Program-made: the position numbers and the translations under genes
Shown here: positions 2,601 to 28,461 of the stretch, piece by piece
How positions within the stretch are numbered: the first letter of the stretch is position 1
Layout: every line of letters starts with the position of its first letter
From: Nitrospirota bacterium
GTDB lineage: Bacteria > Nitrospirota > Nitrospiria > Nitrospirales > Nitrospiraceae
NCBI GenBank assembly: GCA_028876065.1
Contig: JAGWTI010000021.1
Coordinates: 1 to 41,957 of the forward strand
DNA length: 41,957 bases
Direction: 5' to 3'
The notes under the pieces: model-generated
Database searches by the model: none
What the model saw: only the letters and a program-made list of their open reading frames with translations
Told to the model about the DNA's origin: nothing

Positions 2601-2617
2601 CTGAAAGGAGAGAACCA

Positions 2618-3907
2618 ATGCCGGAAGTCTATAACTGGCAACTGGGACGGAAGATGCTGTATCCCTACGAGGAGCGGCATCCGAAGTGGCAGTTTGCCTT
2701 CGTGTTCAACATTAACCGGTGTCTGGCCTGTCAGACCTGTTCGATGGCGGACAAGTCGACGTGGTTGTTCAGCAAGGGCCAGGAGTACATGTGGTGGAAC
2801 AACGTGGAGACCAAGCCCTACGGCGGGTATCCCCAGTTCTACGACGTGAAGATCACGCAGTTGATCGAGCAAGTGAACCCGGGCGGGCAGGTGTGGAACG
2901 TGCGGGTGGGCCGCAAGCACCATGCGCCGTACGGGGTGTTCGAAGGGATGACCATTTTCGACGCCGGGGCCAAGATCGGCCAGGCGGCGATCGGGTACAT
3001 CCCCACGGACCAGGAATGGCGGTTCGTGAACATCTACGAGGACACGGCCACCTCGATGCGCGCCATCGTGGAGGGCGTCGACAAGACCGGGTTCTCGCGG
3101 GATGAACCGTGGCGGATGCAGGGGAGCAGCCTGCCGGAGCATGAGACGTTCTTCTTCTATCTCCAGCGGATTTGCAACCACTGCACGTACCCCGGGTGTC
3201 TGGCGGCCTGTCCGCGCAAGGCCATCTACAAGCGGCCGGAGGACGGGATCGTGCTGATCGACCAGAACCGGTGCCGCGGGTACAAGAAGTGCGTGGAGCA
3301 GTGCCCGTTCAAGAAGCCGATGTATCGGGGCACGACGCGGGTGAGCGAGAAGTGCATCGCCTGCTATCCGCGCATCGAGGGCAAGGACCCGCTGACGGGC
3401 GGGGAGCCGATGGAGACGCGGTGCATGAGCGCCTGCGTGGGGAAGATCCGCATGCAGAGCCTGGTGCGGATCGGCGAGGACGGCCTGTGGGCCGAAGATC
3501 GCTGGCACCCCCTGTACTTCGCCATCCGGGTGGAGCAGGTGGCGCTGCCCCTGTACCCGCAGTGGGGCACGGAGCCCAACGGGTACTACATTCCGCCGCG
3601 GTGGGCGCCGCGGGGCTACGCCCGGCAGATGTTCGGGCCGGGGGTGGACAACGCGATCGAGAAGTTCCTGGTGCCGAGCCGGGAGCTGCTGGCGGTGTTC
3701 CAGCTGTGGCGCGCCAGCCAGCAGATCATCTTCCGGTACGACGTGATTCCGGGCCCGAAGGTGTTCGAGACCCAGATCCACGGGAAGCGGTTCGAGATGT
3801 ACAACGATACCGTGCTGGGCTTCAACAAGTCGGGCAAGGAGGTCGCGCGCATCCAGGTCGAAGAGCCGATCTACATTCGGCCGGCCGAGCGCGTCAACTG
3901 GCTGTAA
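2618..3907 (+). CDS. nxrB: Nitrite oxidoreductase beta subunit NxrB
   Basis: This is the electron-transfer subunit of nitrite oxidoreductase, 429 residues, the usual Nitrospira length. It carries four ferredoxin-like cysteine groups matching the NarH/EbdB type: CLACQTC (early), CNHCTYPGCLAAC, CRGYKKCVEQC, and CIACYP with a later CMSAC. In the first group the position of the fourth NarH-type cysteine is Asp (CSMADK). In the third an aromatic residue (Tyr) replaces a ligand, as in the 3Fe-4S centre of NarH. The start ATG at 2618 is chosen because AAAGGAG sits 6-13 bp upstream and the protein then begins MPEVYNWQ; an in-frame upstream extension runs into repeat sequence. There is no signal peptide, so export would depend on NxrA. 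A strong hairpin follows the stop. Confidence 0.97.
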   Translation: MPEVYNWQLGRKMLYPYEERHPKWQFAFVFNINRCLACQTCSMADKSTWLFSKGQEYMWWNNVETKPYGGYPQFYDVKITQLIEQVNPGGQVWNVRVGRKHHAPYGVFEGMTIFDAGAKIGQAAIGYIPTDQEWRFVNIYEDTATSMRAIVEGVDKTGFSRDEPWRMQGSSLPEHETFFFYLQRICNHCTYPGCLAACPRKAIYKRPEDGIVLIDQNRCRGYKKCVEQCPFKKPMYRGTTRVSEKCIACYPRIEGKDPLTGGEPMETRCMSACVGKIRMQSLVRIGEDGLWAEDRWHPLYFAIRVEQVALPLYPQWGTEPNGYYIPPRWAPRGYARQMFGPGVDNAIEKFLVPSRELLAVFQLWRASQQIIFRYDVIPGPKVFETQIHGKRFEMYNDTVLGFNKSGKEVARIQVEEPIYIRPAERVNWL

Positions 3908-3969: not shown

Positions 3970-4163
3970 TCGCAGGTCAAGTGCGTCGCCTGGCTGTCAC
4001 TCCACGCCGGCACGCAAGGAGGTGAGTCTCGGGAGCGCCGCACCGGCACAGGCGGCGCCCCCACTCGCCGAGGAGGGGGCGGGAGGCCTCCCTGCCCCTT
4101 ACCTCTTCCACGCGTCGTGAGCGACCCGTAGCCCTTTCCCCTCTAACCAAGCGAGCGAGCACC

Positions 4164-4925
4164 GTGGGCATCCGCACAAGCATGCTGCGCAGAATGCCGG
4201 GCTGGCGACAGGTGCTGATCAGCCTGCTGGTGGCGGGGCTGGGGTGGTTTGCGGCGCAGGCCTTGCAGCAAGTCGATCGGGACCTCCGCATCCTGTACAC
4301 CGAATATACGGTGGCGGCCACGGACTTGGCCCATGTCCTGGCCGACGTCATGCGCTACCGGACGACGATCATCCGCGCGCTGGAAGCGCCGAGCCAACGG
4401 GATTTCGAGCGGATTACCGCCTCGTTGCCGCATCAACGCGCCCTGGTCGAACGGACCATCGACCGGTTTGCGGAAGCCAGCCGCGGGGCCGATGGCCGGC
4501 AAGACGACGCCCCGGAACTCCTGGCCGTGCGCGAGAGCCTGGCGGTCTATTTCGCCGCCGCGGACCGCACGATGACGCTCCTCCAAGAGCGGTGGCGCGC
4601 CACGTCGGCGGCGGACGCGGCGGAACGACAAAGCCTGGCGGAGCGCCATGTGGCGGACACCGCCGGGCCCAAACTCGTGCAGGTGACGCTCGCGATCGAC
4701 CGGCTGCTCGATACGGTTGCGATGGTGGGGAAAGACATGCGCGACGCAGGGACGGGAGTGATCCGCAAACTCAGTCTCGCCTTGTGGCTCGGCAGTCTGG
4801 CGATCGCCGGGTTCAATCTGCTCGTCGGCATCCGGGCGTCGGTATCAACCGCCGCATCTTCGGCGGAGCCTCAGCTCGCGGCGACGCATCAGCGTGAAGA
4901 GCCCGGCACCAGCTTGGGCGCCTAG
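4164..4925 (+). CDS. Two-TM sensor-like membrane protein (four-helix-bundle type)
   Basis: A 253-residue protein beginning with GTG; an internal ATG at 4182 is an alternative. A first membrane helix lies near residues 15-35 and a second near 207-228. Between them are about 170 residues of amphipathic helix rich in Ala, Arg, Leu and Glu, the layout of the periplasmic four-helix-bundle sensor domains of chemoreceptors and kinases. The tail after TM2 is only about 25 residues, so there is no HAMP, kinase or methyl-accepting region. It is followed 192 bp later by a histidine kinase and a response regulator on the same strand. It may be an accessory input protein for that pair, but that is inferred only from position. 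I cannot assign a ligand. Confidence 0.75.
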   Translation: MGIRTSMLRRMPGWRQVLISLLVAGLGWFAAQALQQVDRDLRILYTEYTVAATDLAHVLADVMRYRTTIIRALEAPSQRDFERITASLPHQRALVERTIDRFAEASRGADGRQDDAPELLAVRESLAVYFAAADRTMTLLQERWRATSAADAAERQSLAERHVADTAGPKLVQVTLAIDRLLDTVAMVGKDMRDAGTGVIRKLSLALWLGSLAIAGFNLLVGIRASVSTAASSAEPQLAATHQREEPGTSLGA

Positions 4926-5117: not shown

Positions 5118-7151
5118 ATGACAATTCGAACGATCAAAGGGCGGATCGTGCTGGCCATCGTCTTGGTCGGGTGCGTGCCGTTGTTCATCGGGCTCCTCCT
5201 GGCCTATGTGTCGGGCATGCGGTCGCTGCGCGACGTGATCGGCGGCAATTTCCAAACGATCGCCGCGCAAGCCTCCGACCGTGTCACCATGCTGGTTCAG
5301 GGGGAAATCCAAGGCGTGCGGCTCCTGGCCTCGGCGCCGCTCCGCGTCCGTCAACCGGTCGAACTCGCCAATCGCTCCTACCCGGACGATCGCTCGAAGG
5401 TCACGGCGCTCATCGAAGGGCGCATGCAGGTGTGGGAGCAACGAACGGAGGCCGCCCCGCACCTGCTGAATGCGGAGCTCTCGCGATTCCTGTTGGAAAC
5501 CAAAATCCGAGACGGCGACAAGATGGTCGGGTTGCTGATCACGGATCGATACGGGGCGCTGGTCGCCGCCAGCTCGGAGCCCGATCATTATTTCTTTGGA
5601 GAGGAATCGTGGTGGAACGCCGTCCAGGCAGGCGGGACGGAGCGGGTCTACATCAGCGACGTCGTCGCGCGGCACGCCGGATCGTTCCGCACGCCCGAAG
5701 AGACCATCGACATCGCCGTACCCATCCTCGACGACCGGCAACACAGCGTCATCGGGGCGATCAAGGCTTCGTACCGATTCGACGCCCTCTTGGCCATGAT
5801 CAACCAGATCCGGATCGGGCAGACGGGACACGCGATGTTGTTCAGCGCCGACGGCCAGCCGCTGATCTGCCCCATCCTGCCGCGCCAGGCCCACCGCATC
5901 CCGGAGCCGCTCATGCGGATGATCGTCTCGGCGGACCCGGGTTGGGGCATTGCCGACGACGATGGGCACGGCGCGCGGGACACGGTGGTCGGGTTTGCGC
6001 CGGTCCGCGGGCTGGGGTCTCCCGGCAAGACGTGGCATATCTTCGTCCGCCAGCAACCGTCCGAGAGCTATGCGCCCATTCGAGATCAACTCCGGAACGT
6101 GGCGCTGATCGGGGTGGTGATGATCGGCCTGTTGGCCGCGATGGGTCGCTATGTGGCCACGCGCATTGCGCGACCGATCCACACCCTTCGCCGGGGGGTC
6201 GAGGCGATCAGCCAAGGCACCTATGACGGTCCGCTCGACATCAAGACCGGGGACGAATTTGAGGAGCTGGCCGCGGCGGTGCATCGGATGGCCGATCGGC
6301 TCAGCGCGTCCCGGACGGAATTGGAAGCGTTGAACACGGAGCTGACGCGCCGCGTGGAGGAGAAAACCGCCGAGATGGCGACGCAAATGCGCAAGCTCGA
6401 GTTCTCCGAACGGCTGGCGACGTTGGGCAAGGTCGCCAGCGGCATCGCGCACGAGATCAATAATCCCTTGGGGATCATCCTGAACCGCATCGAATGTATG
6501 GAAGCGGAGGCCGTGCAGGCCCCGTTGCCCGATGAGGTGGCCCGGGACCTGGCCGCTCTCCGTTCGCAGGCGGAGCGGATCTCGCGCGTGACCAAGAGCA
6601 TGTTGACCCTCTCCCGCGGCGCCGCCACCACGCTCAAGCCCCTCGACCTGAACTGCGTGGTCCGCTCCTGCCTGGCCGTGGCGGGCGAACGCGTCACGGC
6701 GCATCGCATCCGTCTGGAGCCGACGCTGGCCGCACCCCTCCCGCCCGTGATGGGCGATCGGGACCGGCTGGAGACCGTGGTGCTCAATTTGATCAACAAC
6801 GCGATCGACGCCGTCCAGGGCTCCGTCGCCCCGGGCCTGGTGATCATCGGGACCCGGACGCGGCGGACCGCGGACGGCGAGTGGGTGGAGTTGACCGTGG
6901 CCGACAACGGCCCCGGCATTGCCGACGAAATCTTGGGCCGGATCTTCGATCCGTTTTTCACCACCAAGTCCACCGGTCAGGGCACGGGGCTGGGACTCTT
7001 TCTGAGCTATGGGATCGTCGCGGAACATCGGGGACGTCTGGAGGCGGCCAACGGAGACGTCGGGGCCTGTTTCACCGTCAGCCTCCCGGCGTTGGCGGCG
7101 GCGGCCGAAGAGCCGCAAGGAGCGCTATGGGGATCGCAGGCAAGATTCTGA
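5118..7151 (+). CDS. Cache-HAMP sensor histidine kinase
   Basis: A 677-residue membrane kinase. TM1 lies at about residues 9-32, a large periplasmic dCache-like domain runs to about 325, and TM2 lies at about 328-348. HAMP follows, then a coiled-coil segment. The phosphoacceptor His is residue 445 (SGIAHEINNPLG, the NtrB/ZraS-type H-box). The HATPase domain has an N box (LINNAIDAV), a G1 box (DNGPGI) and a G2 box (TGQGTGLGL). NtrB-type kinases with HEINNPL boxes usually pair with NtrC-class regulators, and exactly such a gene overlaps its 3' end by 25 bp, so the two are translationally coupled. The signal is unknown. Position between nxrAB and a multicopper oxidase suggests respiratory, copper or redox sensing, which is inference. 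Confidence 0.93.
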   Translation: MTIRTIKGRIVLAIVLVGCVPLFIGLLLAYVSGMRSLRDVIGGNFQTIAAQASDRVTMLVQGEIQGVRLLASAPLRVRQPVELANRSYPDDRSKVTALIEGRMQVWEQRTEAAPHLLNAELSRFLLETKIRDGDKMVGLLITDRYGALVAASSEPDHYFFGEESWWNAVQAGGTERVYISDVVARHAGSFRTPEETIDIAVPILDDRQHSVIGAIKASYRFDALLAMINQIRIGQTGHAMLFSADGQPLICPILPRQAHRIPEPLMRMIVSADPGWGIADDDGHGARDTVVGFAPVRGLGSPGKTWHIFVRQQPSESYAPIRDQLRNVALIGVVMIGLLAAMGRYVATRIARPIHTLRRGVEAISQGTYDGPLDIKTGDEFEELAAAVHRMADRLSASRTELEALNTELTRRVEEKTAEMATQMRKLEFSERLATLGKVASGIAHEINNPLGIILNRIECMEAEAVQAPLPDEVARDLAALRSQAERISRVTKSMLTLSRGAATTLKPLDLNCVVRSCLAVAGERVTAHRIRLEPTLAAPLPPVMGDRDRLETVVLNLINNAIDAVQGSVAPGLVIIGTRTRRTADGEWVELTVADNGPGIADEILGRIFDPFFTTKSTGQGTGLGLFLSYGIVAEHRGRLEAANGDVGACFTVSLPALAAAAEEPQGALWGSQARF

Positions 7152-8527
7152 TCGTCGACGACGAGCCGGAAGCGCTGGAGAACTGCTCCCGCATCCTAAA
7201 ACGCTTCCGCTACGACTGCCTCACGGAACATGACCCGATCCGGGCCGTGGACGTCATCAAGCGGGAACGGCCGGGCCTCGTATTGACCGACTTGTGCATG
7301 CCGGGCTTGGACGGCATCGGCGTACTGAACGCCGCCAAGCAATTGGATCCGGCGGTGCAGGTCGTCCTCCTGACCGCTCACGCCACCGTCCAGACCGCCG
7401 TCACGTCGATGCGGCAGGGCGCGCTGGACTACATCTTGAAGCCCTTTACGGGCGCGGAGCTCGAAGCGGTCGCGCGCCGGGCCTTTGCCGGGGCCGGCGA
7501 ACGTTGTGCGGGCGGGAGCGAGCCGGTCGGGCCGACGGCCGGGCAGGAGAAAGGCGGCGCGGCGCCCATGCTCGGCGGCAGCCGGGCCATCCGCGAGGTC
7601 CTGGACCTGGTGAACAAGGTGGCGCGCACCGATGCCAACGTTCTGATCTACGGTGAGAGCGGGACCGGCAAGGAACTCGCGGCGCAGACGATCCACAGCC
7701 GGAGCCTGCGCGCCGCGCGGCCGTTCGTCCCGGTGGACTGCGTCTCTTTGCCGGACACCCTGTTGGAGTCCGAACTGTTCGGCCACGAGCGAGGCGCCTT
7801 TACGGGCGCGCACACCTCCAAGCCGGGCCTGTTCGAGATGGCGCAGGGGGGGACGGTCTTTCTGGATGAAGTCAGCGGCATGAGCCAGAATCTGCAGTCG
7901 CGGTTGCTGCGCGTGTTGCAGGAGCGCCAGGTCCGCCGGGTCGGCGGCATCCGTTTTGTGGACGTGGACGTGCGCGTGATCGCCGCCTCCAATCAGGATC
8001 TGGAGCAGGCCTGCCGTCAAGGCACGTTCCGCGAAGACCTGTATTTCCGCCTGAACGTGATTCCGATCGCCCTGCCGCCCCTCCGGGCCCGTGGGGGCGA
8101 CATTCAGTTGCTGGCGCAGGAATTTCTCACCCGCTTCGCCAGAAGGTTCGGCCCTGCGTCCGGCGTCGTGCCGGAACTGTCTCCCGACGTGACGGATCGA
8201 TTGGTCCGGTATCCTTGGCCGGGCAATGTGCGCGAACTCCAGAACGTGATCGAACGGGCCGTCGCCCTGGCGGAGGGGCCCGTGATCCGCGTGGAGCACC
8301 TTCCGGAGCGCCTGCACCTGGTATCGGCCGACGAGCCGGCCCAAGCCGACGCCGCATCGTTCAAGGACGCCAAACAACAAGCCGTGCGGCTCTTCGAACG
8401 GACCTTCCTGGTGGACTTGTTGAAGCGGCACGGCGGCCACATGGGCCGCGCGGCCCGCGAAGCCGGTGTCGATCGCAAGACCATCGAGCGCATGGTCAAG
8501 CGGCACGGCCTGCGCGACAAGCGCTAG
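7127..8527 (+). CDS. NtrC-family sigma-54-dependent response regulator
   Basis: A 466-residue enhancer-binding protein. The receiver domain (residues 1-125) has the acidic pocket VDDE and phosphoacceptor Asp55 in LTDLCMPG. The AAA+ domain has Walker A GESGTGKE (176-183), the sigma-54-contacting loop GAFTGA (223-228) and Walker [13 protein letters not shown]-type helix-turn-helix ends the protein ([19 protein letters not shown]). The ATG at 7127 is preferred because AAGGAG lies 5-10 bp upstream and the receiver core begins seven residues in (ILIVDDE); the longer open frame upstream is kinase shadow. It overlaps the kinase gene. All residues for sigma-54 activation are present, and a sigma-54 promoter with two dyads lies just downstream (8632-8842), its most likely target. 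Confidence 0.95.
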
Positions 8528-8826: not shown

Positions 8827-8842
8827 TGGAACGGACATTGCT
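8827..8842 (+). promoter_or_regulatory. Sigma-54 (-24/-12) promoter for the multicopper oxidase gene
   Basis: TGGAACG-GACA-TTGCT matches the RpoN consensus TGGCACG-N4-TTGCW with one mismatch. The invariant GG (8828-8829) and GC (8840-8841) are separated by exactly 10 bp. Transcription would start near 8853, leaving a leader of about 210 nt before the ATG at 9064. The leader contains an AT-rich stretch (ATTTATATAAAG near 8970) that could be a second, sigma-70-type promoter. A sigma-54 activator gene lies immediately upstream. Confidence 0.75.
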
Positions 8843-9063: not shown

Positions 9064-12000
9064 ATGAACAGACGTCGCGGAATGGGTCGGATCGGTCTGA
9101 TGGCGCTGGCCGCCATGCTGGCGGGCGCCCCGTCGTTTGCGGAAATGTCGCACCTCGCGCACGGGGTCGCGGACCAGGCGGGAGAGGCGAAAGCCACCGT
9201 CGTGCATCAGCCGGCCGGGCCGGTGTTGCAGGACAAAATGGCGAAGGCTATCGATCAAATCGAAAAACAGGTGCAGAGCAAAGGCCCGTTCCAGGGAGCC
9301 GGCGCCCATGCCATGCAGCAAGGGGTGCTGCTCGTGGCCGACGACCCGGACAAGGTCCAGGTGACGCAAGGGAGCCGGTGCCCGGCGGAGGCGCCGGTCC
9401 GGGCCTTCGACGTCACGGCGATCAACGTGGAAATCACGCTGAACCGCTTCGGCGATTTCTTCCCCGGCTACATGTACGCGCTCACCGAGAACGTCGCGGG
9501 GGTGCGGGAGGAAGAGGCCAAGAACAAGGCCGCGCGCGCCAGCGAGGATCCCACCTTCTCCGCGGGAGCCGTGTCGAACGGACTGCAGGGGGACTTGATC
9601 CAGCCGCTGGTGATCCGGGCCAACCAGGGCGACTGCCTCCGCATCACGCTCCGCAACGAGATCAAGGACGAGCCGACCAACATGATCGTCAACGGCTCGC
9701 AGATGCTCGTGAGCAGCACCGGGAAGCCGGCCACGGCCAACAATCCCGAGGCGCTCGTGCCGTCCGGCAAGGTCGGGGAGTTCGAGTGGTACATCCGGCC
9801 CGACCTGCAGGAGGGCGGACGCGCGTTTCACAGCCATGCCACTCGCGATCAATACTCGCTGGGCATGTTGGGCTCGCTGGTCGTCGAGCCCCGCGGGTCC
9901 CGCCATCTGAGCCCCTTCACCGCCGAGGAGATGAAGAGCGGCTGGGAGGCGATGATCGACCTGGCCAACGGCTCCGACTTCCGGGAGTTCGTGATTTTCT
10001 ACCATGAGGCCGGCGACGAAACCTTCCGCCTCTTGGACCGGAAGGGCGACATGCTGCCGCAGCGCGACCCGCACACCGACACCTACCGGCCGTCGGCGCG
10101 CCTGCTCAACTATCGCAGCGAGCCCCACGGGTCGAGACTGGAAGTCCAGGCGCATCTCGTCGGATTCGCGGACGAGTCGCAGGGCTACGGGTCGTATACG
10201 TTCGGCGATCCGGCCACGACGGTCCCGCGTTCCTACCTGGGCGACCCGGCCAAATTCCGGATGATCGGCGGGTCCGAGATCGTCCACTCGCACCATCTGC
10301 ACGGCGGATCGATCCGATGGGCCAGGCAGCCGGGGACCAGCAGACTCGACCCCACGCTGTCCAAGAACGGCCCGGTGAAGTTCCCGGCGATCAGCGACCC
10401 CTCGGACCGGCTGGACGTCCAGTCCATCGGCCCGTCGGAGATTTACGACGAGGTCATCGAGGGCGGCTCCGGCGGCTTGCAAGCGCTGGCCGGCGAGTTC
10501 GTGTTCCACTGCCATATTCCGCAGCATTACGTCACCGGCATGTGGGGCTTCTGGCGCGTCTACAACACCCTGCAGGTCGAGGGCAACCAGACCGACGTGA
10601 TGAAGCCGCTGGCCGAACTGCCGGACCGCAAGGGCAAGATCAAGCCGGCCGTGAACTCCGACAAGCTCGTGGGCACCACCGTGGACTGGTACGGCGGCAA
10701 GAAATACGAGATCACGAAGGACAAGACCGATTGGAAGGCCAACCCGGTCAAGGTGTCGATCAAGGACTGGGTGGAATACATGCTGCCGCCGCAAGGGCTC
10801 CCCGGCAAGACGGAGGATCAGACCAAGCAGGCGCAGGCCCACGACGCGACGGTGGTGAACTGGAAGTGGGAGAACAGCCTGGCGCTCAACGAGCCGGAGA
10901 CGCCGCACAAGTGGGCGGACTATGCGTCGCCCACACCGCTCAAGCGGCCGCCGATCACGTTCGACCCGCAGACCGGCAAGCTGGCCTTCCCCTGGCTGCG
11001 TCCGCACCTGGGGAAGCGGCCGCCGTTCGCGCCGAACCACGGGGGCGCGCCCTGGCTGGAGCCGTTCCACGTGCGCGAAGACGGCACGAAGAGCACGGAG
11101 CAGGCCAAGCCGGGCGAGCAGGGCCCCTGGAGCCTCTGTCCGGACAACTCGCCGCGGAAGTTCTTCACCGTGCATTCCATCACGCTGCCGATTACGTTGA
11201 AGAAGGCCACGCCGAAGGCGCCGGCCATCGTGGACCCGAACGGCATGATCTACGTCCTGCACGAAGAGGAGCAGGAGGTCCGGAACAATCCGGACAAGCA
11301 GGTGCCGTTGGTCATCCGCGGCAACGTGTATGACTGCGTGGATGTGATCTTCAAAAACGAGATTCCGGACGATGCGCGGACCGGGTGGGCGAACAAGATC
11401 AACCTCCACCCGCATTTCTTCCAGTTCGACACCAGCGCGTCGGACGGACCCACCATCGGGTTCTCCTACGACATGTCCCTGCGCGCTTTCACGATGCTGA
11501 AGGACCCGGAGCCGGAGAAGGGCATGCCGCTGCCGGCCAACACGATCCTGACGGCCGACGTGAAAGCGGGGGCCCGCAGCATTACGGTCGGCGACGCCTC
11601 CAAGTTCCACGTGAACACGGAACTCGGCGTGGGGATGGACGATCCCAAGTTCTTCGAAGTGGCGCGGATCAAGAAGATCGAGGGCAAGACCCTTCACTTC
11701 GAGCTGCCCTTGAAGCACGGTCACAAGAAGGGCGACATCGCCAGCGTCGAGTTCATCCGCGAGCGCTGGTACGTGGACGCGGACTTCGGGACCGTGTTCT
11801 GGCACGACCACGTGTTCGGGACGGATACCTGGGGGCACGGGCTCTTCTCGGCCTTCATCACGGAGCCGCCCCGGTCCACCTACCACGATCCGGTGACGGG
11901 CAAGGAGATCCGGAGCGGGCCCATCGCCGACATCCACACGTTGGAGCCGGTCTCGGCGCACATCCGGGGCAGTTTCCGCGAGGTGATGATGCACATCATG

Positions 12001-13797
12001 GACAGCAACGCCCGCTCGGCGGAGTTGATCACCACGGACAACCCGCAAGCCAAGATGGGCGTGACGACGGTGGACGGCCCCCCGTCGCACCAGTTCCCGG
12101 ACCGGATCAACAAGTCGGCCATGTGGTTCCTGAACGGGGGCGAAGCGACCACCGGCAGCGGCTACAGCATGCGGGTGGAGCCGCTGAGCGTGCGGCTGGC
12201 GAACGACCCGGATCCGTCGAAGCTGTTCGCGTCGCGGATTCACGGGGACCCGGGGACACCGCTGTTGCGGGCCTACCTGGGCGATCCGATCATGGTCCGA
12301 GCCCTCGTCGGCTCGGCCAACGAGGTGCATACCTGGCACGTGACCGGCCACTGGTTCCCGATGGAACGCTACGGGATCACAGCCATGCCGCGCAGCACGA
12401 TCCACCTGGCGATCGGCGAGCGGTATGACCCGGCCATTCCGGCCGCGGGCGGACCGCAAAAGATGGCCGGCGACTATCTGTACTACAGCGGCCGGGCCTC
12501 GCATTTCGCCGAAGGCAGCTGGGGCATCATCCGGGTCCACGACGAGCTGCAGAAGGACCTGAAGCCCCTCCCGAGCCGGGAGCAGATCGAAAAGTCGGCT
12601 CCGTCGGTCTGTCCGGCGGACGCGCCGGTCAAGGCCTTCAACGTGTCGGCCATCGACCAGAACCTCCGGTACAACGAGGGCGCGCCCGGCACCATGGAAG
12701 TGGACCTCGAACGGAAGATGGTGTTCGGGAACGAGCAGGGCAAGATGTACGTCCTGGACGGGGATCGCGGACGCGTCAAGGCGGGCGAACTCAAGCCCAG
12801 CCCGCTCACGCTCCACGTCAACGTCGGGGATTGCGTCAAGATCCACCTCAAGAACGAGATGGCCAAGGACCGGGCCGGGTTCCACGTCGACATGATGGCC
12901 TTCGATCCGAAGGATTCCTTCGGGGCCAACGTCGGGAACAATCCGGGGGACCAGACCGTCGGCCCGGGCGAGAGCAAGACGTACACGTACTACGCGCATC
13001 CGCAGTACGGCGAACTCGCCGCGATGGTCCAGGATTGGGGCAACGTCGTGGAGAATCCGCGGAACGGCCTGTTCGGGTCGATCATCGTCGGGCCGAAGGG
13101 ATCCACCTATCGGGACCCGGTCACCGGCGAGGATCTGACGATGAAGAGCAGTTGGCGGACCGACGTGATCGTGGACCGGTCGCTGCCGGGCAACGAGACC
13201 CGTCGGAACTACCGGGATTTCTCCCTGATGTTCCAGGACGAGGACAACATCATCGGCGTCAGCTTCATGCCCTACATCCAGCAGACGGCGGGCATCACGG
13301 CCGTGAACTACCGGTCCGAGCCGACCGCCTACCGGATCGAAAAGGGCTGCGACGTGTCGGAGGTGTTCAGTTGCGTCAAGGCCGGGGACGGCCCGGTGAC
13401 GCCGTTGCTCCAGGCGCACGTGGGCGACCCGGTGGCGATCCACGTGCTCGGGGTCTTCAGCGAGCAGGTGCAGCTGTTCACCGTGGACGGCCACGAGTGG
13501 CCCCATGAGCCCTATATGCAGGGCGCCGACCAGGTCAGCACCATGGAGTTCGGCGGGTCGGAAATCATCAACGCCTATCTCACCGGCGGCGCCGGAGGGC
13601 CGAACCGGCTGGTCGGAGACTACCTGTGGCAGAACCAGCGGCCGGCCTTCATGAACGCGGGCCAGTGGGGCCTGTTCAAAGTCCTGCCGACCGGCGACCA
13701 ACGGATTCTTCCGCTGACGCCGCAGGCGCCGGCCACCAAGACGGCGGACAAAGACGCGGCGCCGGCGCTGTCGCTCACGTCCTCCTCGGGGCGTTGA
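9064..13797 (+). CDS. Giant secreted multicopper oxidase (multi-cupredoxin)
   Basis: A 1577-residue protein with a Sec signal peptide (cleavage likely after SFA, near residue 26), so it acts outside the cytoplasmic membrane. The ATG at 9064 has AGGAGG 9-14 bp upstream; the TTG at 9046 is unlikely. Copper motifs come in an unusual order. Residues 256-258 are HSH. Residues 408-413 are HSHHLH (HxxHxH), and 482-493 are HCH-xxx-H-xxxx-M, a full type 1 site with trinuclear ligands. Much later come HPH (782-784), HDH (914-916) and HxxHxxxH (1089-1096). The first domain lacks the expected HxHG motif, which HPH at 782 could supply from a distant domain, as in six-domain MnxG/ceruloplasmin folds. Substrate is unknown; Mn(II), Cu(I) or another low-potential donor is possible. 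Regulation is likely by the sigma-54 circuit upstream. Confidence 0.9.
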   Translation: MNRRRGMGRIGLMALAAMLAGAPSFAEMSHLAHGVADQAGEAKATVVHQPAGPVLQDKMAKAIDQIEKQVQSKGPFQGAGAHAMQQGVLLVADDPDKVQVTQGSRCPAEAPVRAFDVTAINVEITLNRFGDFFPGYMYALTENVAGVREEEAKNKAARASEDPTFSAGAVSNGLQGDLIQPLVIRANQGDCLRITLRNEIKDEPTNMIVNGSQMLVSSTGKPATANNPEALVPSGKVGEFEWYIRPDLQEGGRAFHSHATRDQYSLGMLGSLVVEPRGSRHLSPFTAEEMKSGWEAMIDLANGSDFREFVIFYHEAGDETFRLLDRKGDMLPQRDPHTDTYRPSARLLNYRSEPHGSRLEVQAHLVGFADESQGYGSYTFGDPATTVPRSYLGDPAKFRMIGGSEIVHSHHLHGGSIRWARQPGTSRLDPTLSKNGPVKFPAISDPSDRLDVQSIGPSEIYDEVIEGGSGGLQALAGEFVFHCHIPQHYVTGMWGFWRVYNTLQVEGNQTDVMKPLAELPDRKGKIKPAVNSDKLVGTTVDWYGGKKYEITKDKTDWKANPVKVSIKDWVEYMLPPQGLPGKTEDQTKQAQAHDATVVNWKWENSLALNEPETPHKWADYASPTPLKRPPITFDPQTGKLAFPWLRPHLGKRPPFAPNHGGAPWLEPFHVREDGTKSTEQAKPGEQGPWSLCPDNSPRKFFTVHSITLPITLKKATPKAPAIVDPNGMIYVLHEEEQEVRNNPDKQVPLVIRGNVYDCVDVIFKNEIPDDARTGWANKINLHPHFFQFDTSASDGPTIGFSYDMSLRAFTMLKDPEPEKGMPLPANTILTADVKAGARSITVGDASKFHVNTELGVGMDDPKFFEVARIKKIEGKTLHFELPLKHGHKKGDIASVEFIRERWYVDADFGTVFWHDHVFGTDTWGHGLFSAFITEPPRSTYHDPVTGKEIRSGPIADIHTLEPVSAHIRGSFREVMMHIMDSNARSAELITTDNPQAKMGVTTVDGPPSHQFPDRINKSAMWFLNGGEATTGSGYSMRVEPLSVRLANDPDPSKLFASRIHGDPGTPLLRAYLGDPIMVRALVGSANEVHTWHVTGHWFPMERYGITAMPRSTIHLAIGERYDPAIPAAGGPQKMAGDYLYYSGRASHFAEGSWGIIRVHDELQKDLKPLPSREQIEKSAPSVCPADAPVKAFNVSAIDQNLRYNEGAPGTMEVDLERKMVFGNEQGKMYVLDGDRGRVKAGELKPSPLTLHVNVGDCVKIHLKNEMAKDRAGFHVDMMAFDPKDSFGANVGNNPGDQTVGPGESKTYTYYAHPQYGELAAMVQDWGNVVENPRNGLFGSIIVGPKGSTYRDPVTGEDLTMKSSWRTDVIVDRSLPGNETRRNYRDFSLMFQDEDNIIGVSFMPYIQQTAGITAVNYRSEPTAYRIEKGCDVSEVFSCVKAGDGPVTPLLQAHVGDPVAIHVLGVFSEQVQLFTVDGHEWPHEPYMQGADQVSTMEFGGSEIINAYLTGGAGGPNRLVGDYLWQNQRPAFMNAGQWGLFKVLPTGDQRILPLTPQAPATKTADKDAAPALSLTSSSGR

Positions 13798-13924: not shown

Positions 13925-14686
13925 ATGTTCAGTGCGCATTGGCGTCTGTGTCTGACGCTCAGCCTACTCATGGGGCTCGGCGCGGGACCCGCGCGCGCCT
14001 ACGAAGAGGCGGCGGTGGTGGACGGCGGGACGATCACGGGGTCGGTCACTTTTGCCGGCCTGGAGCCGCCGCTCAAACGATTCGAGCTGCGCCGGTCTCC
14101 GGACCGGGCCTATTGCGGAGCCCTGTCCGACGGCTCCGGCTATCGTCTGCTGCGGGAAGTGGCGGTGGATCAGGAAGGCGGGCTCAAGGACGTGGTGGTG
14201 ACGATCGAAGGGGTGGCAAAGGGCAAGCCCTTTGCGTCCGAGGAAACGAAGCTCGACGCGAACGTCTGCCAGTTCCTCCCGTTCGTGTCGGTGGTGCGGG
14301 ACCGGCATCCGCTCACCATCACGAACCTGGACCCGGTCGCGCACGACCTGCAGGTCTATGAGCGGGACCAGGAGCATGTGTTCATCATCTTTCACCGGCC
14401 CTCGCTGACGCGCACGGGGACGACCGACCGGATCAAGCTGACGGGGGCGCGTCGGGAGATGACCATGCAGTGCGGGATGCATCCGTTCATGCAGGCCCAC
14501 GGGCTGGCGGTGGACAATCCCTACTATGCCGTCACCGGACGGGACGGGACCTTTGCCATCGGCGGCGTGCCGCCCGGCACCTATCGTGTCACGGCCTGGC
14601 ATCCGACCCTGGGCGAGCAGCAGCAGGAGATCGTCGTGCCGGCCAAGGGCACGGCGGCGCACCGGTTCACATTTCACAACAAGTAA
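13925..14686 (+). CDS. Exported cupredoxin-like / carboxypeptidase-regulatory-like protein
   Basis: A 253-residue protein with a signal peptide ending near ARA (residue 25). GGAGAGGAGG lies just before the ATG. A plausible type 1 copper site is visible: His140 in VAHDLQV, and Cys183, His186 and Met189 in QCGMHPFM. The order and spacing (H...C-x2-H-x2-M) resemble plastocyanin/azurin sites, although the C-terminal loop is shorter than in plastocyanin. The last 60 residues (GGVPPGTYRVTAWHP) look like a carboxypeptidase-regulatory or transthyretin-like beta fold, as in proteins often labelled methylamine-utilisation-like. Following the oxidase by 127 bp, it could be an electron carrier or copper donor for it; that is inference. 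Copper loading has not been shown. Confidence 0.8.
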   Translation: MFSAHWRLCLTLSLLMGLGAGPARAYEEAAVVDGGTITGSVTFAGLEPPLKRFELRRSPDRAYCGALSDGSGYRLLREVAVDQEGGLKDVVVTIEGVAKGKPFASEETKLDANVCQFLPFVSVVRDRHPLTITNLDPVAHDLQVYERDQEHVFIIFHRPSLTRTGTTDRIKLTGARREMTMQCGMHPFMQAHGLAVDNPYYAVTGRDGTFAIGGVPPGTYRVTAWHPTLGEQQQEIVVPAKGTAAHRFTFHNK

Positions 14687-14701: not shown

Positions 14702-15205
14702 ATGTCACGAAGCACGACGATAGGTGCCGTCACTCTGTTTTTGCTCAGCGTAGTGTGGGTCCTGGCGGACGCGTCCATCGCTCCGCCGGTCAGCCGGATC
14801 GAAGTGGTATTGGCCGGCGCCTACAAAGACCAAGTCGCGTCGATCAAGCAGGAGTTTTTCCAGGCCGGATTGGCCAATGTGCACGTCCAGTTTGCGCGTC
14901 AGGGGCAGCCGCCCCAGAACATCGGGCTCGGCGCGCAGGTCCCGGCGGAGCGAGCCAGGGAGGCCATCAGGCTGGCGTTGAAATACAATCAGGACGTCGC
15001 GATTCTCCTGCCGGAACGGCTCTTCCCGCCCCGCTTCATCACCATCGCCTCGTCGAATTTCGACGACACGGTGGAATATCCCATCGACAAGGTGAGTCTG
15101 ACGAGGCTGCAGGACCCCACGCTCACCACGGACCAGTTCCACGAGCTCTACCGGAGCCTGACGCCGGCGGATCGGCCGCCGGTCAGAAAAGGCCGGGCGT
15201 TCTGA
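14702..15205 (+). CDS. Exported or membrane-anchored protein of unknown function
   Basis: A 167-residue protein whose N-terminus is a single hydrophobic helix (residues 6-24), either an uncleaved anchor or a signal peptide. The body is mixed alpha/beta (RIEVVLAGAYKDQV, AREAIRLALKYNQDVAILL) with no cysteine and no motif I recognise. It begins 15 bp after the cupredoxin-like gene and its TGA overlaps the next ATG (TGATG), so the three small genes form one transcription and translation unit. The context suggests a periplasmic role in copper or redox chemistry, but the sequence itself gives no function. Confidence 0.75.
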   Translation: MSRSTTIGAVTLFLLSVVWVLADASIAPPVSRIEVVLAGAYKDQVASIKQEFFQAGLANVHVQFARQGQPPQNIGLGAQVPAERAREAIRLALKYNQDVAILLPERLFPPRFITIASSNFDDTVEYPIDKVSLTRLQDPTLTTDQFHELYRSLTPADRPPVRKGRAF

Positions 15206-15612
15206 TGAACCGGGTCTCTCGCGCGGTCCTCGTGGCGCTCGTTGCCGTCGGTTGGATTCCGGCCGCCATCGCGGGCGCAGAACAGGGAATCCGGGACCAT
15301 ACGACGGCGATGCTCAAGGATGCGGAAGAGATGGTCGCGCACGGGGGGATGGGGGATGCCAAGGCCATCGTCCACCATTGCGGGGAAGTGAGCCGGCATG
15401 CGGAGGCGATCCTGAAGGCGCTGGTGCCGGCGGACCCCCGCGCCAAGGCAGCCGCCTCCCACCTGCAAGAGGCGATCAGGTACTGCCAGCGGGTCGCGGA
15501 GATGGGCGACAAGGTCGATCCCGGGGCCAGCCTGAATCCGGCTACGAAGGCGCGCACCGCCGCGAGGGACGCGGCGAAACACCTCGCTACGGTCAAGGCC
15601 GGCGGCGCCTAG
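15205..15612 (+). CDS. SmbP-like small periplasmic metal-binding protein
   Basis: A 135-residue protein with a signal peptide ending near AIAGA (about residue 24). The mature part is helical with spaced histidines and acidic residues (DHTTAMLKDAEEMVAHGG, IVHHCGEVSRHAEAIL). This pattern resembles SmbP of Nitrosomonas europaea, a four-helix copper-binding protein, and matches its repeated HA-E-A helix heptads. The start ATG overlaps the stop of the preceding gene, indicating coupling. Likely role: buffering or delivery of copper in the periplasm, consistent with the oxidase and cupredoxin-like protein upstream. Family assignment is from pattern, not from a database search. Confidence 0.75.
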   Translation: MNRVSRAVLVALVAVGWIPAAIAGAEQGIRDHTTAMLKDAEEMVAHGGMGDAKAIVHHCGEVSRHAEAILKALVPADPRAKAAASHLQEAIRYCQRVAEMGDKVDPGASLNPATKARTAARDAAKHLATVKAGGA

Positions 15613-17189: not shown

Positions 17190-17234
17190 GGAGTCAACCG
17201 TCGTGCCCGAACCCCTCAACCGGCATCGTGACCC

Positions 17235-17969
17235 ATGCATCGTCCGATCCATACCAGTCTGTTCGTCATTTGGCTGACCGTTTTGACCGGGACCCAGCCG
17301 CTCCCGGCCCAGCAGTTGGTGGAGGTCCTCGGCAAGGACGGGGCGCCGATGGTGCTGGTGCCGGGGGGCGAGTTTCTGTACGGAGAGGGGGAAAACCAGC
17401 ACCGGCTGGCGCTGCCCTCGTTCTACATGGACAAGTATGAAGTGACGACCAAGCAGTACCTCGCCTTTCGGCAGGCGACCGGACGGAAAGAACGGTTCAA
17501 AGTGAACGAACTCATCCAGGCCAGCGAAGGGGATCGCCCGATCATCGGCGTGGATTGGCAGGACGCGGAGGACTACTGCCGGCACTACGGGAAACGGCTG
17601 CCGACGGAAGAGGAATGGGAGAAGGCGGCGCGGGGCGCCGATGGGCGGATCTACCCCTGGGGCGACGCCGAACCGACGCAGGCTCTGGCCAGCTACGACT
17701 GGGATGGGAAGCAGCGCTGGCAGGGCTATGACAACCTCTCGCCCGTGGGCGCGCATGACGCCGGCAAGAGCCCCTACGGCCTCTACGATCTGGCCGGCAG
17801 CGTGACCGAATGGACGAGCTCGGAGTACGATTTCGAAACCAAGGTGGTCCGAGGCGGGTCTTGGCTCTCCCACCCCTCGGCGCTGCGGGCCGCGCACCGG
17901 CGCGGCGTCTTGCCCACGTACCGCCTCAACGCGCTGGGCTTCCGCTGCGCGCAGGATGCGCGGGAATGA
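17235..17969 (+). CDS. Exported FGE-fold protein of the duplicated module, copy 1
   Basis: A 244-residue protein with a signal peptide (cleavage near PAQQ, residue 27) and a compact SUMF1/FGE domain: VLVPGGEFLYGEG, KYEVTTKQYLAF, PIIGVDWQDAEDYC, RLPTEEEWEKAARG, YPWGDAEPTQ, LYDLAGSVTEWTSS, VVRGGSWL and ALGFRC. The active-site cysteine pair after GGSW is missing (serine, histidine and proline stand there), so a formylglycine-generating role is unlikely. It is about 80 percent alike by eye to the protein at 20207. The ATG at 17235 is about 39 bp downstream of the predicted transcription start; no strong ribosome binding site is seen. Probably an extracytoplasmic structural or carbohydrate-binding protein. 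Confidence 0.87.
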   Translation: MHRPIHTSLFVIWLTVLTGTQPLPAQQLVEVLGKDGAPMVLVPGGEFLYGEGENQHRLALPSFYMDKYEVTTKQYLAFRQATGRKERFKVNELIQASEGDRPIIGVDWQDAEDYCRHYGKRLPTEEEWEKAARGADGRIYPWGDAEPTQALASYDWDGKQRWQGYDNLSPVGAHDAGKSPYGLYDLAGSVTEWTSSEYDFETKVVRGGSWLSHPSALRAAHRRGVLPTYRLNALGFRCAQDARE

Positions 17970-20160: not shown

Positions 20161-20206
20161 GGGCCCCAGCCGTCGTTTCTCAATCCTTCAACCGACCTCG
20201 TCACCC

Positions 20207-20938
20207 ATGCGTCGTGTGATCGCCGCGAGTCTGGTCCTGGCCTGGCTGGGTTTCCTGGCCGACAGCCGGCCGCTCCGGGCCGAGCGGCCCGTCGAGATCC
20301 TCGGCAGGGACGGTTCCCCGATGGTGCTGGTGCCGGGGGGCGAGTTCATCTACGGAGAAGGGGACGACCGACGCAGTCTGGCGCTGCCCTCGTTCTACCT
20401 GGACAAGTACGAAGTGACGACCAAGCGCTACACCAAATTCCTGCAAGCGATCGGGCAGAAGGAACGGGAGCGGTCCAACGAAAGCAGCTTGGCCAGCCCG
20501 GGGGATCGGCCGATCATCGGCGTGGACTGGCAGGATGCGGAGGCCTATTGCCACTACTACGGAGAACGCCTGCCGACGGAAGAGGAATGGGAAAAGGCGG
20601 CGCGGGGGACGGATGGGCGGATCTACCCTTGGGGCGACGCCGAACCGACGCGCGCCGTCGCCAACTACGATTGGGACGGCAAGAAGCGCTGGCGCGGCTA
20701 TGACAGCCTCTCGCCCGTGGGCGCCTATGAAGCCGGCAAGAGTCCCTACGGCATTTACGATCTCGCCGGCAACGTGACCGAGTGGACGAGTTCGGATTAC
20801 GACCGGGAAACCAAGGTCGTCCGCGGCGGGTCCTGGCTTGTGGATGCCGTGACGCTCCGTTCGGCGCACCGCCACGGCGTCATCCCCACGTATCGGCTCA
20901 ACGTGCTGGGGTTTCGCTGCCTGCAAGACGCGTCGTAA
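20207..20938 (+). CDS. Exported FGE-fold protein of the duplicated module, copy 2
   Basis: A 243-residue protein with a signal peptide (MRRVIAASLVLAWLGFLADS, cleavage near RAE) and the same SUMF1/FGE domain as 17235: VLVPGGEFIYGEGD, KYEVTTKRYTKFL, IIGVDWQDAEAYC, RLPTEEEWEKAARG, IYDLAGNVTEWTSS, VVRGGSWLV and VLGFRC. The formylglycine-generating cysteine pair is absent. The ATG at 20207 is in step with the copy 1 start, and the open frame upstream to 20132 is promoter sequence. It ends the duplicated module; a convergent TPR gene follows 30 bp later. Confidence 0.88.
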   Translation: MRRVIAASLVLAWLGFLADSRPLRAERPVEILGRDGSPMVLVPGGEFIYGEGDDRRSLALPSFYLDKYEVTTKRYTKFLQAIGQKERERSNESSLASPGDRPIIGVDWQDAEAYCHYYGERLPTEEEWEKAARGTDGRIYPWGDAEPTRAVANYDWDGKKRWRGYDSLSPVGAYEAGKSPYGIYDLAGNVTEWTSSDYDRETKVVRGGSWLVDAVTLRSAHRHGVIPTYRLNVLGFRCLQDAS

Positions 20939-22160: not shown

Positions 22161-23267
22161 ATGCCCAGCGACCCGACCACCATTACGAAACTCGAACTCT
22201 GGCCGGCGGACCTGCCGCTGACCGACCCCTTCGTCGTGGCCACGGGCAGCCGCGTCACCGCCGAACTCCTGTTCGTGCGGCTCACCCTGGCGGGCGGCAT
22301 ACAGGGCTATGGCGAGATCGCCCCGTTCCCCGAAGTGGGAGGGGAGGACCGGACCTCCGCGCTCCAGGCGGCCACGGACCTGGCCCGCATGACGCTGGGC
22401 CGATCCGTCACGGAATACGAACAACTCGGCCGGCTCTTTGGGGAGCAAGCCAGCGCCCATCCGGCCGCGCGCTGCGGGTTGGAGACCGCGCTGCTCGACG
22501 CCCTCGGCCGCCACGTGCGCATCCCCCTCTGGGGCTTCTGGGGCGCCGCCGACGTGCGGGCGCGCGAGACGGACATCACCATCCCCATCGCCGACCGGGA
22601 GAAGTCCGTCGCCCTGGCGCGCGGCTGGGCGCAGCGAGGATTTCGGATCTTCAAAACCAAAGTCGGCACGGATGTGGAGGGGGATATCCGCCGGCTGGAG
22701 GCCATCCATCGCGCGCTGCCCGGAAGCGCCTTCATCGCGGACGCGAACCAGGGCTTCACCGTCGAGGCCTGCCGGAGGTTTCTCGCCGAACTCAAGCAGA
22801 TCGGCGTGAAGCTGCGGCTCCTAGAACAGCCGGTCCCGCGGGAGGATTGGGAGGGGATGGCGGCGCTGACGAAAGAAGCGGGGGTGCCGGTGGCGGCAGA
22901 CGAATCGGCCCGCTCGCTGGAGGACGTGCAACGGGTGGCCCGGACTCAGGCGGCCCAGGTCGTCAACATCAAGATCACCAAGACCGGCCTGCTGCAGGCC
23001 CTCGAGATCGCCAGGTTCGCGAAGGGTGCCGGGCTGTCCCTCATGGCCGGCGGCATGGTCGAAGCGCGGGTGGCCATGGGCTGCTCCTTCGCGCTCGTGC
23101 TGGGGCTGGGCGGGTTCGAGTTTCTGGATTTGGACACGCCGCTCCTCCTGGCGACCGATCCGGCCATCGGCGGCTTTCGCTACGAAGGGCCCATCCTCCA
23201 CCCCTGGTCCGGACCCGGCCTGGACCTAACGGTAGCGCCCACCGGTCCCGTCACGACCATTGCATGA
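22161..23267 (+). CDS. Dipeptide epimerase (L-Ala-D/L-Glu type), enolase superfamily
   Basis: A 368-residue cytosolic enzyme of the muconate-lactonizing subgroup. The catalytic residues are all visible: Lys165 and Lys167 (KTK), metal ligands Asp194 (DANQ), Glu222 (EQP) and Asp247 (ADES), and the second base Lys271 (KITK). This arrangement is that of L-Ala-D/L-Glu epimerases, which act in recycling of murein peptides; other dipeptides are possible. GTGGGAGG precedes the ATG. The last 42 codons are duplicated at 24066-24193 beyond a toxin-antitoxin cassette. A short hairpin (AAGACG/CGTCTT, 23270-23290) after the stop may terminate transcription. Confidence 0.9.
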   Translation: MPSDPTTITKLELWPADLPLTDPFVVATGSRVTAELLFVRLTLAGGIQGYGEIAPFPEVGGEDRTSALQAATDLARMTLGRSVTEYEQLGRLFGEQASAHPAARCGLETALLDALGRHVRIPLWGFWGAADVRARETDITIPIADREKSVALARGWAQRGFRIFKTKVGTDVEGDIRRLEAIHRALPGSAFIADANQGFTVEACRRFLAELKQIGVKLRLLEQPVPREDWEGMAALTKEAGVPVAADESARSLEDVQRVARTQAAQVVNIKITKTGLLQALEIARFAKGAGLSLMAGGMVEARVAMGCSFALVLGLGGFEFLDLDTPLLLATDPAIGGFRYEGPILHPWSGPGLDLTVAPTGPVTTIA

Positions 23268-23279
23268 AGAAGACGGGGG
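23140..23279 (+). repeat. Epimerase 3'-end repeat, copy 1 (in the intact gene)
   Basis: These 140 bp include the last 42 codons, the stop and 12 bp beyond. An equal-length copy with about ten substitutions lies at 24066-24205. The two enclose the PIN/antitoxin cassette. Confidence 0.9.
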
Positions 23280-24065: not shown

Positions 24066-24193
24066 CGCTCCTGCTGGCGACCGATCCGGTCACCGGCGGC
24101 TTTCGCTACGAGGGTCCCATCCTCCACCCCTGGTCCGGCCCCGGCCTGGACCTAGCGGTAGCGCCCACCGGTCCCGTCACGACCATTGCATGA
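24066..24193 (+). pseudogene. Duplicated 3' end of the dipeptide epimerase gene
   Basis: It encodes the last 42 residues of an epimerase (LLLATDPVTGGFRYEG... to TTIA and stop) with no start. Compared with the intact gene three residues differ, and several other changes are silent (for example GAGGGT for GAAGGG). This fragment therefore diverged under coding constraint before separation, or came from a related strain. The matching block continues to 24205. It marks the right border of the PIN/antitoxin cassette. Confidence 0.9.
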
Positions 24194-24258
24194 AGAAGAC
24201 GGGGGTTGGCTCGGTCTCTGCCGGCGAGGGTCGTTCGTGGCGGAGGCGGACGGCGGGC

Positions 24259-27838: not shown

Positions 27839-28129
27839 ATGGGCATCAACGAACTGCTCCGAACCAGGCGCGAAGAGATTCTCCGGATCGCCGCGAAGCA
27901 CGGCGCGCATAACGTGCGCGTGTTCGGCTCCGTGGCGCGAGGCGAAGCCGATGAAACCAGCGACGTGGATTTCCTCGTCGAGATGGAACCAGGACGCAGT
28001 CTGCTCGATCACGCGGGGTTGATTCTTGATCTTGAGGAACTGCTGAAATGCCCGGTGGATGTGGCATCGGAACGAGGGTTGCGGACGAAAGTTCGAAAAC
28101 GGGTCATGAAGGAAGTCGTCCCCTTATGA
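27839..28129 (+). CDS. mntA: MntA-type nucleotidyltransferase antitoxin
   Basis: A 96-residue minimal nucleotidyltransferase with the motif GS-x10-DxD (Gly30, Ser31, Asp42, Asp44: GSVARGEADETSDVDF). Characterised MntA proteins transfer AMP to a tyrosine of the partner HEPN toxin and silence it (type VII toxin-antitoxin). Its TGA overlaps the next ATG (ATGA). GTCGGCAGGAGAG lies before the start, and a -10-like TAGACT stands at 27811. The RX4HXY motif in the neighbour makes the assignment firm. Confidence 0.88.
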   Translation: MGINELLRTRREEILRIAAKHGAHNVRVFGSVARGEADETSDVDFLVEMEPGRSLLDHAGLILDLEELLKCPVDVASERGLRTKVRKRVMKEVVPL

Positions 28130-28461
28130 AGGATGACCGCGTTCGCCTGGAAGACATTCTCGAAGCGATCAAACGAGTCGAACGTTACGCCAAGCGTGGG
28201 CAAAAAGCCTTCCAGGCCGATGAACTGATCCAGAACTGGGCCATCCACCACATTCAAATAATCGGCGAGGCAGCCGGCAAGCTCTCTGAGTCCTTCCGCA
28301 AAGCCCATTCAGAAATCCCGTGGCCACAGATCATCAAGATGCGGCATGTCCTGGTGCACGATTATTTCGGAATCGACCTTGATGAGGTGTGGGCGGCTGT
28401 CGAGCGTGATCTGCCCGATCTCAAGCGCAAGGTAAAAGCCATTCTGCGGGAACAAGCCTAG
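28126..28461 (+). CDS. hepT: HepT-type HEPN RNase toxin
   Basis: A 111-residue all-helical HEPN protein with the RNase motif RX4HXY (Arg73, His78, Tyr80: MRHVLVHDY). The tyrosine is the residue AMPylated by MntA in studied pairs. Other family features are NWAIHHIQIIGEAAGKLS and WPQIIKMRH. The start overlaps the mntA stop by four bases. With mntA it forms an apparently complete and intact type VII system, in contrast to several broken modules nearby. Confidence 0.88.
   Translation: MKDDRVRLEDILEAIKRVERYAKRGQKAFQADELIQNWAIHHIQIIGEAAGKLSESFRKAHSEIPWPQIIKMRHVLVHDYFGIDLDEVWAAVERDLPDLKRKVKAILREQA

Follow-up and report, generated by a model that had tools for sequence, protein, structure and literature searches.

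Described six-domain multicopper oxidases

Ordinary laccases carry the HxHG/HxH copper motifs early in the chain and the HxxHxH/HCH set at its end. Two-domain laccases (e.g. Streptomyces SLAC) have one cupredoxin pair per chain, form trimers and place the trinuclear site between pairs, while a six-domain ring offers three inter-pair interfaces (1/6, 2/3 and 4/5) at any of which the trinuclear cluster is possible. Ceruloplasmin, with six cupredoxin domains in three pairs, and hephaestin build their interdomain trinuclear site from domains 1 and 6. In the bacterial six-domain oxidases described by Vasin et al. 2013 (PMC3600357), the trinuclear site is located between domains 2 and 3, the one type 1 site belongs to domain 2, and leftover residues are found at the remaining interfaces. 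The solved complex of MnxG, the Mn(II) oxidase from Bacillus sp. PL-12 (9bxa, an H340A mutant), has six cupredoxin domains, a type 1 site in domain 2, and trinuclear histidines in domains 2 and 3. Bacillus MnxG requires MnxE and MnxF (PMC5622069). An MnxG-like oxidase similar to the Mn oxidase of Bacillus SG-1 was reported in 2013 from the nitrite oxidoreductase (NXR) cluster of Nitrospina and Nitrospira (PMC3578206). Earlier publications cover the architecture and the family, as well as the presence of the family near NXR in Nitrospira.

Oxidase gene and domain architecture

The window, i.e. the whole stretch of 41,957 nucleotides that was analysed, corresponds to positions 1-41957 of contig C2 in a 3.4 Mb genome of 158 contigs, whose closest named relatives are Nitrospira. 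Features of the oxidase locus are collected in Table 1. The multicopper oxidase recognized in an earlier note on this DNA is a real gene, with an ATG start, a stop codon and a gene-like GC content by codon position (0.62/0.44/0.91), a pattern typical of real high-GC genes. A 1565-aa antisense open reading frame across the oxidase was rejected as spurious; its codon GC mirrors the sense pattern.

Table 1. Features of the oxidase locus, with positions counted from the start of the window
Feature	Position	Strand	Evidence and remarks
NxrA, 831 aa, truncated by contig start	11..2506	+	Best PDB match NXR 7b04 subunit A, E=0; neighbour, not conserved partner
NxrB, complete	2606..3907	+	Best PDB match NXR 7b04 subunit B, E=6e-179; neighbour, not conserved partner
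Histidine kinase (dCache-HAMP-HisKA-HATPase)	5118..7151	+	Pfam; upstream in 11/46 group A loci with at least 5 kb upstream
NtrC-type sigma-54 response regulator	7106..8527	+	Pfam; upstream in 12/46 group A loci with at least 5 kb upstream
Candidate sigma-54 -24/-12 element TGGAACGGACATTGCT	8827..8842	+	Canonical GG/GC spacing, at -237
MnxG-like six-domain multicopper oxidase, group A paralogue, 1577 aa	9064..13797	+	Start ATG at 9064, stop at 13797
Likely Sec-type signal peptide (MNRRRGMGRIGLMALAAMLAGAPSFA)	9064..9141	+	Judged by eye from the sequence
Cupredoxin domain 1 (residues 108-290)	9385..9933	+	Pfam PF07732, pair alignment; HxHG lost (NMIVNGSQ), remnant HSH 256-258
Cupredoxin domain 2 (residues 291-515)	9934..10608	+	Pfam PF07731; aligned with MnxG domain-2 HxxHxH and HCH motifs
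Presumed domain 2 ligands: type 1 H408, C483, H488, M493; trinuclear His 411, 413, 482, 484	9934..10608	+	Invariant in 57 homologues
Long linker, first to second domain pair (residues 530-689)	10651..11130	+	H648 invariant, H659 nearly invariant
Cupredoxin domain 3 (residues 690-960)	11131..11943	+	Presumed trinuclear His 782, 784, 914, 916 invariant; aligned with MnxG HIH, HDH
Insert of ~90 residues within domain 3 (residues 805-898)	11476..11757	+	Absent from Bacillus MnxG; H849 in 55/57, H887 in 57/57
Cupredoxin domain 4 (residues 961-1172)	11944..12579	+	Aligned with domain 2; degenerate type 1/trinuclear positions H1089, H1092, H1147, not conserved
Cupredoxin domain 5 (residues 1180-1370)	12601..13173	+	Pair alignment; weak PF07732
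Cupredoxin domain 6 (residues 1371-1558)	13174..13737	+	Pair alignment; copper-site motifs all gone
CpdReg, probably exported, carboxypeptidase-regulatory-like domain	13925..14686	+	Pfam; downstream in 30/45 group A loci with at least 2.5 kb downstream
p167, 167 aa, family unassigned	14702..15205	+	Downstream in 41/45 group A loci with at least 2.5 kb downstream
SMBP-family small metal-binding protein	15202..15612	+	PF16785; downstream in 25/45 group A loci with at least 2.5 kb downstream

Among solved structures, MnxG (9bxa) is the top phmmer match (E=1.2e-94), with six stretches that together span the oxidase. The profile alignment of residues 108-515, 690-1172 and 1180-1558 as three tandem homologous domain pairs (probability 99.7-99.9%) gives a domain count of six, and 9bxa aligns along the whole oxidase. 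By its homology to MnxG and its six-domain repeat, the protein is a bacterial six-domain multicopper oxidase of the MnxG-like type. The cupredoxin pair as a unit is common to this oxidase and the two-domain laccases, whereas the oxidase is a covalent six-domain chain.

A predicted model of residues 686-1562 retrieved 9bxa first in Foldseek (5e-48, next entry 4e-21), with ceruloplasmin at 1e-20 to 1e-18, and VIA-align against 9bxa gave a Z of 21.1 over 638 residues. Because the quality of this model is only moderate (mean pLDDT 60), it serves as support at the level of fold and not of geometry. The AlphaFold2 models of residues 100-1185 (pTM 0.39) and 686-1562 (pTM 0.64) came from shallow alignments, with the ligand region of domain 3 mostly below pLDDT 50, and they are too poor for any distances between histidines to be claimed.

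The oxidase is longer than MnxG (1577 versus 1227 aa) and about 27% identical to it over the structurally aligned part. Differences from MnxG are the additional linker that precedes domain 3, the insert within this domain and the HSH motif of domain 1. Neither the linker (residues 530-689) nor the insert had a match in a Pfam search. With one invariant and one nearly invariant histidine, the insert could possibly hold an additional metal site. Although MnxG is its best match among solved structures, the oxidase scores 141 bits against the NCBIfam MnxG equivalog NF041487, far below the cut-off of 3100, which places it far from the curated MnxG subfamily; no oxidase copy of its own genome reaches this cut-off.

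Copper motifs and presumed ligands

The copper motifs comprise HSH 256-258, HSHHLH 408-413, HCHIPQHYVTGM 482-493, HPH 782-784, HDH 914-916 and HTWHVTGH 1089-1096. HCH occurs once in the protein, and the domain-1 site reads NMIVNGSQ in place of HxHG. All of these positions had been given exactly in the earlier note, which took their order to be permuted or distributed. The motifs stand as described there, but their order is accounted for by the 2/3 layout already described for six-domain oxidases of bacteria (PMC3600357): it seems permuted because the active site would be built between domains 2 and 3 of six.

In an alignment of 57 homologues, with identities as low as about 48%, the twelve presumed ligands never vary, and the motifs are therefore not a matter of chance. 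By homology, these residues may be assigned to one type 1 site in domain 2 and to eight trinuclear histidines, four in domain 2 and four in domain 3, that align with those of MnxG, where the same split and the same order are seen (HxxHxH and HCH in domain 2, HIH and HDH in domain 3). The trinuclear cluster would then lie at the domain 2/3 interface. A centre split across two domain pairs as in MnxG had been suggested before, and of the solved structures MnxG lies nearest in both sequence and fold. The likeness to ceruloplasmin, proposed alongside, extends to the six domains in three pairs and an interdomain trinuclear site. However, domains 1 and 6 form that site in ceruloplasmin, in contrast to the probable 2/3 location here (PMC3600357), and since domain 6 has no HxxHxH and HCH and domain 1 no HxHG, the oxidase is not of the ceruloplasmin/hephaestin type.

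Several other histidines vary between lineages: position 256 is H or R, 258 is H, Y or F, 1089 is H or M, 1092 is mostly T and 1274 mostly S. What was earlier seen as a complete late set thus joins the true domain-2 motifs (408-413 and 482-493) with an unconserved remnant of domain 1, HSH 256. Nor do HSH 256/258 and HxxHxxxH 1089, once counted towards the trinuclear centre, appear to belong to it, being variable and situated at the other two interfaces. These residues fit variable remnants of ancestral sites, HSH 256 at interface 6/1 and H1089, H1092 and H1147 at 4/5. Groups A and A2 of the family (see below) retain some histidines at both interfaces, as would be expected if two or three trinuclear sites were in use. 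We consider this very improbable, since the extra sites have lost most of their ligands, with no second HCH and no domain-1 HxHG, and their histidines differ among paralogues.

Paralogues and taxonomic distribution

Three oxidase copies are present in the genome, and the window gene is 54% identical to the other two, located on contigs C4 and C59. In a 61-row tree, built by a quick method with SH-aLRT support only, the family falls into group A (the window gene), group A2 (~70% identical to it) and group B (~54%, including the copies on C4 and C59), and a branch with full support separates each group from the rest. Judged by synteny, the oxidase of the Nitrospina and Nitrospira NXR clusters (PMC3578206) would correspond to group B, ~54% identical to the window gene.

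Of 61 relatives, 59 had an oxidase match, as did 113 of 295 genomes sampled from the phylum; the 113 are all listed under the same class. Group A has a patchy distribution, and a search of three other genomes of the same genus (two near complete, one 77% complete) did not find it, for which reason horizontal transfer was considered. Groups A and B look similarly divergent internally, and the patchiness may reflect either horizontal transfer or loss. In a genome of the same class and another order (locus L133, genome G223), A-like (61%) and B-like (54%) oxidase genes stand in tandem, which makes it probable that A and B diverged before the order arose.

A limited literature search yielded no paper on the group A paralogue; publications on Nitrospirales comparative genomics and on N. 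moscoviensis expression do not mention it. Its gene neighbourhood and its separation from NXR-linked group B appear to be less described, no account having been found in the same search. Distinguishing widespread group B from accessory group A makes the question of manganese oxidation in Nitrospira testable gene by gene, with the motif order explained and a clear ligand map at hand.

Linkage to nitrite oxidoreductase

The genes at the start of the window are genuine NXR, and their proximity had been taken as a clue to function. As such it does not carry over to the family branch: among the 35 group A loci whose upstream flank measures 8.5 kb or more, this window alone is NXR-linked. The count was restricted to loci with long flanks because the loci come mostly from metagenome-assembled genomes (MAGs) and NXR copies often lie at contig ends. 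In contrast, four group B loci (L143, L145, L094 and L025) have nxrB or its tail upstream, and two of them (L143 and L145) show the order NxrA-NxrB-response regulator-oxidase; the order NXR-regulator-oxidase therefore recurs in the family, with group B proteins.

On contig C4 of the same genome, a remnant encoding 27 C-terminal residues of NxrB (4079-4159 of locus L094) lies 446 bp upstream of the group B oxidase. The gene at 4164-4925 of the window, upstream of the histidine kinase, precedes group B oxidases at two loci of the same genus (L020 and L021). Together, the nxrB tail and the placement of this gene suggest a rearrangement between nxr copies in this genome.

The oxidase might draw electrons from NXR or its carriers, O2 reduction then being a side branch of nitrite oxidation. 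The adjoining nxrAB and the NXR-linked group B relatives in L143 and L145 would suit such a branch. We find it barely credible, however, as group A is linked to NXR in this genome only, ~5 kb of regulatory genes separate nxrB from the oxidase, a search for a heme domain found none, and the branch would save no energy.

Gene neighbourhood and proposed function

The locus also differs from that of MnxG in its gene neighbourhood, which has no recognized MnxE or MnxF genes. The three small downstream proteins gave no significant match to PDB sequences, a search in which proteins of MnxE/MnxF size may be missed, and p167 had no match in Pfam, NCBIfam or PDB searches. Upstream, an element of the form TGGAAC-N5-TTGC is found at about -220 to -245 in eight group A loci, including the window, against ~0.007 expected per locus. 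The relaxed form TGG-N2-C-N5-TTGC, by which it was recognized, was picked after the first matches were seen. Since group A loci are mutually related, this recurrence is suggestive only; a stricter sigma-54 consensus had no match within the window.

We favour, as fairly probable, an MnxG-type oxidase of six cupredoxin domains, secreted or periplasmic, with a 2/3 trinuclear cluster, Mn(II) as the most likely substrate and sigma-54/NtrC control where this is kept. The choice of Mn(II) as donor rests on the closest characterized enzyme, a Mn oxidase, and extracytoplasmic Mn(II) oxidation is, by this analogy, the most likely function. Export of the protein is predicted from its putative signal peptide. 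Electrons from the substrate would enter one at a time at the type 1 copper of domain 2 (H408, C483, H488, M493) and pass through the HCH bridge (Cys483-His482/His484) to the trinuclear cluster (H411, H413, H482 and H484 with H782, H784, H914 and H916), where O2 would be reduced to water. Domains 1, 4, 5 and 6 would act as a degenerate scaffold that closes the ring, and Mn(II) would be oxidized to Mn(III)/(IV) outside the cytoplasm. Where a genome has the upstream two-component genes, the adjacent NtrC-type regulator probably drives the candidate sigma-54 promoter. The metal-binding SMBP neighbour, the kinase-regulator pair and the candidate sigma-54 site were counted in favour of this reading, whereas the occurrence of the pair in only a minority of group A loci counts against it.

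The same SMBP-family gene, downstream in 25 of the 45 group A loci, would also suit a periplasmic detoxifying cuproxidase or ferroxidase that keeps the MnxG-like architecture and acts on Cu(I) or Fe(II). The adjoining two-component system would agree with metal-responsive control, and the sequence is far from curated MnxG. We rate this substrate choice as unlikely, as the closest characterized relative is by a wide margin a Mn oxidase, and the dCache domain of the sensor is generic and no known Cu sensor. Alternatively, the oxidation of Mn(II) might stop at a soluble Mn(III) pool, which shields the periplasm from superoxide, as the Nitrospina gracilis genome paper proposed for the Nitrospina/Nitrospira oxidase, arguing from the lack of superoxide dismutase and catalase and from the absence of the gene in anaerobic anammox bacteria (PMC3578206). 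That proposal concerned the NXR-cluster oxidase, which by linkage is group B and not group A, and we hold it to be quite improbable for the window gene.

Mn(II) oxidation, the function we favour, agrees with a 2025 sand-filter study that proposed Mn oxidation by Nitrospira, suspected in Mn removal, partly from MnxG in MAGs (PMC12070406); in the literature examined, no biochemistry on any Nitrospira homologue was found. Group A might further be a functionally distinct, regulated branch of Nitrospira oxidases, with its own SMBP, p167 and CpdReg genes and extra conserved histidines in the insert, a tentative idea that we think possible but doubtful. If true, some nitrifiers would owe to group A an inducible capacity for metal (Mn) oxidation, distinct from the core NXR-linked oxidase, and nitrification could be linked to Mn oxide formation in sand filters.

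Other features of the window

Direct repeats (75-85%) occupy positions 17195-17804 and 20167-20776; the latter is a FGE-sulfatase-like (PF03781) gene and the former encodes a related protein. FGE-sulfatase-like genes recur beside group A/A2 oxidase loci. An Eco57I-type restriction-modification gene is present at 29348-31741, with a HepT-like gene just upstream (28048-28461). A second direct repeat of 140 nt (23140-23279 and 24066-24205, 95% identical) overlaps the end of an MR_MLE enzyme gene and is a recent partial duplication.
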